From NCBI GenBank assembly GCA_013416795.1, contig RQSC01000015.1, forward strand, positions 673,403 through 737,402: a DNA stretch of 64,000 nucleotides. The letters run 5' to 3'. A program made the position numbers and the translations under genes. The notes beneath the pieces were generated by a model. It worked only from the letters and a program-made list of their open reading frames with translations. It was not told the DNA's origin and searched no databases. Each line of letters starts with the position of its first letter. Positions within the stretch are counted from its first letter, which is position 1. Positions 2,448-64,000 of the stretch are shown one piece after another. The DNA comes from Prasinococcaceae sp. CCMP 1430. Its lineage: Eukaryota > Prasinodermophyta > Palmophyllophyceae > Prasinococcales > Prasinococcaceae.

Positions 2448-3707
2448 ATGGGGCGGATGGCGGGCGGCGGTGGCACGAAGCGTGCGCACAGCGGCGATGT
2501 GGCTGCTGCGGCGGCGACGGCGGCGGCGGCCGGGGGCGCCGCGGCCCAGGGCCTGAGCAAGGAGGAGCGCAAGGCGGCCAAGAAGGCGCGCAAAGAGGCG
2601 CGTCGCGCTGCACGGCGCGAGCTCATTGCGGCAGGCGACGCGTCTTTGCCCCCCGCCGCCCGTGGCGCGTCTTCGCCCCCCCCCGCCACCCAACTTGCGG
2701 ATGAGCCGCAGAGCACCGTGGGACCTTGCAACGTCTGCGGGCGCATGGGTCACCTTGGCCGCACCTGTCCAACGCGTGTGTGTCGGGCCTGCGGCAAACC
2801 CGGCCACCTGGCGAAGCACTGCCCCGCGAACGCCACGTGCTCGCATTGCGGTGTCAAGGGCCACCTACCGAAGCAGTGCACGTTCGGCGCGCAGCCGCAC
2901 GAGCGCTTCCTGTACTGCGGTGCGTTCGGCCAGCCGTGCGGATGCTTCGCGCGGCGATTCCTGGTGCCCCTGCGCCGAGCCGCTGCATCAGAAATCGACC
3001 CGGCCGACCTCCGCGCCAACGGCCGCACCGATGTTGGCACGGGCTGCGTGTCGTCTGGACTTTTCCTATCACAGTCGATGCGCGGCAATGCGAGCGTCAC
3101 ACTCGCGTTCGGCGGCGACAAGAAAGTAATAGAGGTGGGCGGCGCGACTACCCGCGGCCTACGGCCGGACGACGCGTCGGTGGCCGCGCGCCTACGCCTC
3201 GCCGCGAGGTCGCCGATGAACGCCGAGGACGACGGCTTTGACGCGTCCTCGGGCACCGTGGTGGACGCCGAGCGCTACAGCGCGAGCCTCAAGCGCGGTT
3301 TTCGTGTGAGCGACGGCACGACCGAGGATGCCCTGCGCGAGATGATGGCGTCGAACGAGCGCGCAGGCGGTGCCCCGCCGTTGCTCATAATGCTCGACGC
3401 CAACGGCACGCCCATCGAGGAGGCCTGCCGCCAGATGACAGCAGCTGCAAAGCGCGGCAAGGCGCCCGCGTCGCGAGGATGTGGCGTAGTCGTCCTGCTT
3501 GGCGACGACCGCGGCCTGCACGAGGACGATGAGCGCATGGCAGAACGGGTGGCGCAGGAGGCGGGCTCAAGCGTGCTCCGCGTGTCGCTAGGAAAGAATT
3601 CACTCTTCAGCATACACTCCATCATGATTGTGAACTGGGTCATGGACACACACATGCACTCGTGCAAACTCAAGGCCGCGCGAGACATGGGTGGGCGCTC
3701 GGGTTGA
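2448..3707 (+). CDS. TrmY-like SPOUT RNA methyltransferase with three CCHC zinc knuckles
   Basis: A 419-residue protein with a basic Lys/Arg/Ala-rich N-terminus (about 20-60). Three CCHC knuckles follow (about 93-150): CNVCGRMGHLGRTC, CRACGKPGHLAKHC and CSHCGVKGHLPKQC, each C-x2-C-x4-H-x4-C. The remainder resembles the TrmY family (PF04013), SPOUT enzymes that N1-methylate pseudouridine 54 of archaeal tRNA. The matching parts are RFLVPLRRAA at the domain start, GRTDVGTGCVSSGLFLSQ, then VVLLGDDRGLHEDDERMA and SLGKNSLFSIHSIMIVNWVMD near the end. The knuckles would bind single-stranded RNA and could present it. The family's usual late HCI is HSI here. The start could be 2448 or 2457. A TGTAA motif lies 24 bases after the stop. 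The methyltransferase assignment rests on motif order only. Confidence 0.72.
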   Translation: MGRMAGGGGTKRAHSGDVAAAAATAAAAGGAAAQGLSKEERKAAKKARKEARRAARRELIAAGDASLPPAARGASSPPPATQLADEPQSTVGPCNVCGRMGHLGRTCPTRVCRACGKPGHLAKHCPANATCSHCGVKGHLPKQCTFGAQPHERFLYCGAFGQPCGCFARRFLVPLRRAAASEIDPADLRANGRTDVGTGCVSSGLFLSQSMRGNASVTLAFGGDKKVIEVGGATTRGLRPDDASVAARLRLAARSPMNAEDDGFDASSGTVVDAERYSASLKRGFRVSDGTTEDALREMMASNERAGGAPPLLIMLDANGTPIEEACRQMTAAAKRGKAPASRGCGVVVLLGDDRGLHEDDERMAERVAQEAGSSVLRVSLGKNSLFSIHSIMIVNWVMDTHMHSCKLKAARDMGGRSG

Positions 3708-3730: not shown

Positions 3731-3735
3731 TGTAA
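3731..3735 (+). terminator. TGTAA polyadenylation-like signal
   Basis: TGTAA, the usual green-algal poly(A) signal, 24 bases after the stop of the TrmY-like gene and inside a 148-base convergent gap. Confidence 0.4.
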
Positions 3736-62615: not shown

Positions 62616-64000
62616 TTACAGCTGGGGCCACAGGCAAGGGGTGCTGATGGTCACGCCGCTGAAATCGACGGAGTCATCGAGCACGCACTGGCCGAGGTTG
62701 TTGAAGAGGGTCTGCGTGAACGGCGAGCCCACGTGCAAGTTGAGCGCCTCCACCGGGCCCAGGCCGGTGGCCTGGTAGCAAATGACCTCTGTTCGGAAAG
62801 GGCGCGAGAAACGCGGAGAGCGGGCGGCCAGGTCAGCAGGGGGCACAACAAGCAGCTGCATGGGGCGCCGCCCTCGGCGCCACCAGCACAAATCCACGAA
62901 AGCAGCGATTCGTCCACGCGCACAATCGCGCGCACGCAACGCATCGACGGTCTCCCTCCACCAGCTCTTTCACTCGTGGGCGGCGCAGCGGCGGCGCGGC
63001 GCGATGGCGCAGCGGCGGGGCGACGGCGCCGCAACGCACCACCCATGAACGCCACCATAGCCAGCCTGCCCCAGTACAGCTCCCTCGTCTTCGCCGCGTC
63101 AAGGTCGCCCTGCAGGAGCGCGAGAGCAGCGATCGGGCGGCATTGGCGGCGCCGCGTCAGCGCGCGCTCGCGGCGCACAGGATCGCACTCGCATGGCGTC
63201 GTAGCGTTCGCTCGCGCGGAAGCGCGGTCGCGAGACGCTCGCGCCCTCAGCGCACCTTGCTGAAGCCAAGGGGGTCGAAGGGGCCGCCGGGGTAGCCCGG
63301 GTCGACCGTGGTCAGCTTCTGCTCCGAAAAGATGGGGTCCTGGTTGGCCGAGCCCGGCGTGCGGATGTCCATCCAGCGGCGGATCTCCACCCAGTGCATC
63401 ATGAGGAACTGGAACGCGAGGAGCGCGGCGGGGTTCATGGGGAGATCGACCTCGAGCGGCGCCGTGTAGAAGTTGATGCCGGTGAACACCTCGCCGGCGA
63501 CCGAGCCCGCGACGCCGACCATCGCCCAGCGCGCGTGCTGCAGCTCCGCCTGGCGGTACCACGTCATCGCGTTCGGGTCGGCGCCCAGGCCCAGCGGGTC
63601 GAGGCCGAAGTCGCCGGGCATGCTGCAAAGGCGGTGCATATGGGTCGCGGCGGCGTCAGCGCGGGGCAAGACGGCGGTGGCACTGGCATCAGCAGCCCGC
63701 GCTTCCGGCGACGCGCCGGCGGAGCGCGTGCGCGGGCCGCCGCGCGACACCGGCGAAATCTCCTTCCCGACCCCTAATTGGGGGGCGCTGCGACGCCGGC
63801 GCGCGCGACGCGCGCGCCCTCGCTCGCCCGTCGCCGCGGCCGTGAGTCCCCACGCGGCCCGCGGGCGACAGCGAAGTGGGAGCGGGTGCCACCGCACCAG
63901 TCCCGCGCGCCCTCCCCTCCGGACACTGGCAGCACGCCCTCGGCGGCCTCCTGCGCTCGGTGCCGGCGTTCCGCGTCCACCGGGGCGCGCGCCGCGCAGC
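62616..64000 (-). CDS. Chlorophyll a/b-binding antenna protein (Lhca-like), 5' end not resolved
   Basis: A thylakoid light-harvesting protein. Resolved exons: 63622-63256, 63109-63040, 62788-62616; introns 146 bases (GTGCGC donor) and 251 bases (GTGCGT donor) keep frame. Mature start MPGDFGLDPLGLGADPNAM; helix 1 WYRQAELQHARWAMVGVAG with the Glu/Arg pair and His that ligate chlorophyll; helix 2 LLAFQFLMMHWVEIRRWMD; then DPGYPGGPFDPLGFS; helix 3 rebuilt across the introns, TRELYWGRLAMVAFMGE then VICYQATGLGPVEALNLH. The generic E-x-x-x-x-R-x-A-M is present twice. The form fits green-lineage PSI antenna better than fucoxanthin proteins. A CTTTGCAG acceptor before MPGDFG implies an upstream exon with the transit peptide, in 63624-64000 or beyond the window; it could not be placed. 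Confidence 0.88.

Follow-up and report, generated by a model that had tools for sequence, protein, structure and literature searches.

Does a eukaryote carry an archaeal-type pseudouridine N1-methyltransferase joined to a zinc-knuckle array? The question is raised by a locus of the alga Prasinococcaceae sp. CCMP 1430, within the 64,000-nucleotide stretch of DNA analysed here (the window), for which a first reading of the sequence (the original prediction) had proposed a nuclear gene that pairs a TrmY enzyme with CCHC knuckles. In the reviews cited here, TrmY appears as an archaeal enzyme only, putting N1-methylpseudouridine (m1Psi) into tRNA (PMC5372735), and the m1-pseudouridine of eukaryotes is that of rRNA (PMC7694415).

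Gene structure and genomic setting

The locus is a single intron-free open reading frame at 2448..3707 of the window (+ strand), which runs from ATG to TGA and, upon translation of the window, encodes 419 amino acids plus the stop in the order basic N-terminus, three CCHC knuckles, SPOUT domain. The stretch leading from the knuckles to the SPOUT domain is free of stop codons in this frame. Codon usage, scored against that of neighbouring genes, gave +0.25 bits per codon in the frame of the gene and negative values in all other frames, a fit that argues for a functional gene in this frame; by segment, the N-terminal and SPOUT portions scored positively, and the knuckles about zero.

All three knuckles have the perfect C-X2-C-X4-H-X4-C spacing: CNVCGRMGHLGRTC at residues 94-107 (2727..2768, +), CRACGKPGHLAKHC at residues 112-125 (2781..2822, +) and CSHCGVKGHLPKQC at residues 131-144 (2838..2879, +). 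Pfam zf-CCHC matched the same three stretches (3e-9, 37 bits versus a cutoff of 20.8), in agreement with the three canonical knuckles of the original prediction. Among the other open reading frames of the window (60 amino acids or longer), none contains a CX2CX4HX4C knuckle, not even in one copy. The nearest solved sequence to the array is yeast AIR2 (2.6e-8). A Lys/Arg-rich stretch read from the translation, SKEERKAAKKARKEARRAARRE (residues 37-58; 2556..2621, +), resembles a nuclear or nucleolar signal and may act as one. Knuckle 3 is joined to the SPOUT domain by a Cys-rich linker, YCGAFGQPCGCF (window 2904-2950, residues about 153-168), which is not of the CCHC type and is possibly an additional metal site.

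The window lies within a 775-kb contig of a 24.5-Mb genome. The flanking genes are eukaryotic (an FAD-dependent oxidoreductase, an AAA_11/AAA_12 helicase of the SMUBP2 type, and ECM29), and genes for LHC (chlorophyll a/b-binding) proteins are numerous in the assembly. These ordinary eukaryotic neighbours, together with the many LHC genes, identify the locus as part of the nuclear genome of the alga rather than a contaminant. A profile search of the assembly found one PF04013 copy in the genome, the protein described here. Twenty-four bases past the stop codon, at window 3731-3735, stands TGTAA, the usual poly(A) signal of green algae, a motif whose frequency across the window is not above chance. 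Close to its right end, the window also encodes a chlorophyll a/b-binding domain at 63256-63624 (-).

Family, fold and conserved residues of the SPOUT domain

A whole-Pfam scan of the 419-amino-acid protein returned PF04013 (Methyltrn_RNA_2) as the sole enzymatic family above cutoff (44.7 bits versus a gathering cutoff of 25.5, 1.7e-11, profile positions 2-195 of 198); the domain occupies residues 169-401 (2952..3650, +). No match to EMG1 (PF03587), RsmE or other SPOUT families was obtained in Pfam and NCBIfam scans of the protein. An HMM that we made from archaeal TrmYs gave the algal domain 61 bits, the top of 2000 shuffles reaching 12.4, and phmmer against the PDB matched only AF1056 and MJ1640. 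In the alignment the stretches GRTDVGTGCVSSGLFLSQ, GDDRGLHEDDER and SLGKNSLFSIHSI fall on the motifs of TrmY with their order preserved, as had been predicted. By sequence, then, the algal protein belongs to the TrmY (COG1901/PF04013) family, as a divergent eukaryotic form fused to knuckles.

The score of the protein against the NCBIfam TrmY equivalog NF002560 was 60.2 bits, far below the cutoff of 183. This cutoff is passed by Vibrio (208 and 227) and Thermococcus (244) members, and two scored members of a Thermoplasmatota clade both fell just below it (149 and 167). Since NF002560 accepts Vibrio and Thermococcal proteins, a TrmY score is no proof of m1Psi54 synthesis; failure to reach the cutoff does not by itself rule out related chemistry.

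An AlphaFold model, computed with an alignment of the algal protein and 34 prokaryotic (nearly all archaeal) proteins, reached pLDDT 81.6 and pTM 0.81, whereas a single-sequence model without the alignment (pLDDT 37) was uninformative. Foldseek placed the TrmY-family structures 2qmm (1.4e-13), 3aia/3ai9 and V. cholerae VCA1059 (2qwv) first and Nep1 next; the VIA-align Z values were 22.7, 21.7 and 19.6 for 2qmm, the 3aia type and 2qwv versus 13.1 for Nep1. The structure search against TrmY crystals suggested in the original prediction put no other SPOUT family ahead. The fold match is not an independent test, because the alignment behind the model consisted of TrmY proteins; the Pfam-wide sequence search is independent of the model and agrees with it on the TrmY family. 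The fold of the algal domain is predicted to be intact.

We compared the domain with 31 archaeal-type sequences, which share 20 invariant positions. The algal protein keeps 15 of them (D187, G192, R193, D195, C200, S208, R212, P240, D241, A252, G284, L316, G320, D353 and D400) and changes five (L185P, G190A, R199G, E242D and R243A); in addition, the nearly invariant H209 is replaced by Q, which Vibrio also has. The N-terminal signature GRTDVGTGCVSSGLFLSQSMR (residues 192-212; 3021..3083, +) retains the family-invariant G, R, D, C, S and R and carries R199G and H209Q. Part of an algal insert absent from archaeal TrmYs follows at residues 261-278 (3228..3281, +), with low confidence in the model. 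Further on, LLGDDRGLHEDDER (3495..3536, +), the counterpart of the archaeal (L)GDH.G..EEDE loop, keeps D353, and the C-terminal motif SLGKNSLFSIHSIMIVNWVMD (3585..3647, +) keeps D400 and resembles both the Thermococcal GRKSYL.SHVI..VN..LD and the Thermoplasmatota variant SLGK.WLQGHACI. Among these changes it is the loss of the two arginines, R199 and R243, that is the real warning sign. The original prediction had worried instead about HSI replacing the late HCI motif; this concern was unfounded, as archaeal TrmYs have HCI, HTI, HAI or ACI and Thermococci HVI, and with the cysteine so variable the change says little.

A phylogeny with archaeal COG1901 proteins, which the original prediction had called for, grouped the algal protein with the Thermoplasmatota clade (support 89/95), the algal branch being 3.18 changes per site long, in a tree whose sampling favours that clade, because it was fetched with the algal query, and leaves out Asgard archaea, DPANN and most bacteria, with one sequence standing for the algal lineage. 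The grouping was recovered, but the AU test rejected neither of the alternative joins, to Thermococci (p 0.24) or to Methanimicrococcus (p 0.25), and a local phmmer comparison favoured no archaeal group, Thermococci scoring lowest among them. On account of the very long branch, the query-biased sampling, the AU values and the phmmer result, descent from any one archaeal group is no more than tentative. Members of the Thermoplasmatota clade (L115-L137) have RAV for the RCV motif and LQGHACI for LHADHCI, possibly reflecting another change of substrate. Searches of plasmids, phages and viral contigs yielded no relatives of the algal domain, nor did a PHROGs search with the algal protein give a match; L127, the one archaeal open reading frame with an apparent N-terminal extension that was scanned, contained no further Pfam domain.

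RNA-modification context and candidate functions

The function of COG1901 is not uniform. The family has a few bacterial members (PMC1829167), and a review table lists it as the archaeal m1Psi54 methylase and as a 'bacterial unknown methylase' (PMC5041015). Thermococcal genomes carry a COG1901 member, and the tRNA of P. furiosus has m5U54, not m1Psi54 (PMC7912444). It is therefore unsafe to transfer the TrmY function within COG1901. Thermococcal proteins (L033, L095-L114) are a distinct variant, with RS, RF or RA for RC and a GRKSYL.SHVI C-terminus; the tRNA of their hosts contains m5U54, yet the NCBI model names them TrmY. Two TrmY-like genes of Vibrio (L083, L084) are plasmid-borne, one on a conjugative plasmid, where it adjoins a recX-like gene; the GR.D motif is absent from their products (AH.E or CH.E), yet these are annotated as tRNA Psi54 methyltransferases. 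An ordinary archaeal-type TrmY (L046) occurs in a MAG named Bipolaricaulota bacterium, through transfer or mis-binning. Identical TrmY proteins (L078 and L079) are encoded near both ends of the Halorussus aquaticus chromosome NZ_CP100400.1, perhaps a duplicate from an untrimmed circular overlap.

The pseudouridine substrate of archaeal TrmY is made by PUS10. A PUS10 gene of eukaryotic type is present in the algal genome (TIGR01213, 169.6 bits at G000:C11; human PUS10, 2.9e-42), and its frame contains the conserved stretch GREDADVRMLG, which has a catalytic role. An EMG1/Nep1 gene, matching in two pieces, is found elsewhere in the genome, so that the knuckle-TrmY gene is no replacement for EMG1. 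A missing T54 methyltransferase would have favoured m1Psi54 replacing m5U54; this idea was ruled out by a gene for a TrmA-type tRNA m5U methyltransferase, found along with two weaker relatives. Given the TrmA-type gene, many tRNAs probably carry m5U at position 54. With PUS10 and TrmA-type genes the alga should in principle be able to make both Psi54 and m5U54, as human cells do via PUS10 and TRMT2A, and a role in m1Psi54 would then be limited to a subset of tRNAs, or another RNA would be targeted.

That the protein is an RNA pseudouridine-N1 methyltransferase has, in our judgement, a little less than an even chance. The fold match, to three TrmY-family crystals and then to Nep1, itself a pseudouridine-N1 methyltransferase, points to this activity, as do the 15 retained invariant positions together with the PUS10 gene. 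Assignment as a TrmY enzyme is made less secure by the shortfall from the equivalog cutoff, by the loss of R199 and R243, and by E242D and H209Q. The family, the fusion and the nuclear gene of the original prediction stood, while its m1-pseudouridine activity stays a proposal: the equivalog score is low, two arginines are lost, and synthesis of m1Psi54 is not known for other members of COG1901. The new RNA target that it considered is speculation.

As an N1-methyltransferase, the protein would dimerise through its SPOUT domain, bind S-adenosylmethionine in the C-terminal knot of that domain and methylate N1 of pseudouridine in RNA. The knuckles would add a grip on single-stranded RNA to the minimal recognition of the T-arm that the archaeal enzyme has, and the basic N-terminus would direct the protein to the nucleus or nucleolus. 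As substrate, a pseudouridine made by PUS10, such as Psi54 in a subset of tRNAs, would be the most economical choice, which is the weakest step of the scheme; the target RNA and any part that the knuckles play in choosing it are speculative. The full scenario, in which a eukaryote recruited an archaeal-type pseudouridine N1-methyltransferase, fused to knuckles and acting after PUS10, to make m1Psi beyond the Nep1 rRNA site, whether in tRNA at position 54 or in a different nuclear RNA, we regard as rather unlikely when taken as a whole.

The algal protein may instead be a COG1901 member with another reaction or target, recruited by its knuckles to a nuclear RNA such as rRNA or snRNA, where the base that it modifies need not have been made by PUS10. 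This is conceivable, if somewhat improbable: it accords with the documented lack of isofunctionality in COG1901 (Thermococci carrying a member while P. furiosus has m5U54), with the Thermococcal-like C-terminal motif, the Vibrio-like Q at position 209, the TrmA-type gene and the score far under the equivalog cutoff. The algal protein, however, is not specifically close to the sequences of Vibrio or of Thermococci, the latter giving the lowest archaeal phmmer scores, and a joint clade with Thermococci is neither favoured nor rejected by the AU test. Unlikely, in our view, is a SPOUT domain that is catalytically weak or dead and serves in an RNA-binding or assembly factor whose knuckles do most of the binding. 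Nep1 has a ribosome-assembly role in addition to methylation. Such a factor would fit with the two lost arginines, which do not vary in the archaeal set, with the very long branch and with the strong knuckle array, but the protein retains most of the invariant residues, among them R and D of GR.D, R212, D353 and D400, and its fold is predicted to be intact. Very improbable is an artefact of the gene model or contamination, with knuckles and domain on separate transcripts or the DNA prokaryotic: the two-piece EMG1 match indicates introns elsewhere in the genome and the codon score is neutral over the knuckles alone, but the frame is continuous and needs no second start, the coding signature lies on both sides of the knuckles, the long contig has eukaryotic neighbours such as ECM29 in an LHC-rich assembly, and the knuckle array is most like that of eukaryotic AIR2.

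Comparison with known systems

A literature search combining zinc knuckle, SPOUT and methyltransferase found no report of such a fusion. The presence of a eukaryotic TrmY-family member and PUS10 in one genome makes eukaryotic m1Psi in tRNA or other RNAs directly testable. N1-methylpseudouridine is the base used in mRNA therapeutics, which would lend practical interest to a eukaryotic enzyme that modifies RNA and has gained an RNA-binding module, as the algal protein would be if it is an N1-methyltransferase.

The closest known proteins are the archaeal TrmYs (M. jannaschii MJ1640, 3aia/3ai9, and A. fulgidus AF1056, 2qmm), which have the same fold and family (Z 21.7-22.7, 23-28% identity) and share with the algal protein the motif order and most invariant residues. 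The algal protein differs from them in its three CCHC knuckles, basic N-terminus and two inserts, in being encoded by a eukaryotic nuclear gene, and in R199G, R243A, E242D and a score of 60 bits where the equivalog asks for 183. The COG1901 proteins of bacteria (VCA1059 of V. cholerae, 2qwv, and the Vibrio plasmid copies) also share the fold (Z 19.6), have Q where archaea have the H of LSH and likewise occur in a non-archaeal host; unlike the algal protein, they are without knuckles and have lost GR.D, and they show no specific sequence affinity with it. The AIR1/AIR2-type CCHC proteins (TRAMP) resemble it in the knuckle array but are without a methyltransferase domain. Nep1/EMG1, the 18S/16S rRNA pseudouridine N1 methyltransferase (COG1756/PF03587), is the next-best fold (Z 13.1) and occurs in eukaryotes; it has the chemistry predicted for the algal protein and acts on another RNA, but it belongs to a different Pfam family and is encoded by its own EMG1 gene in the same genome.
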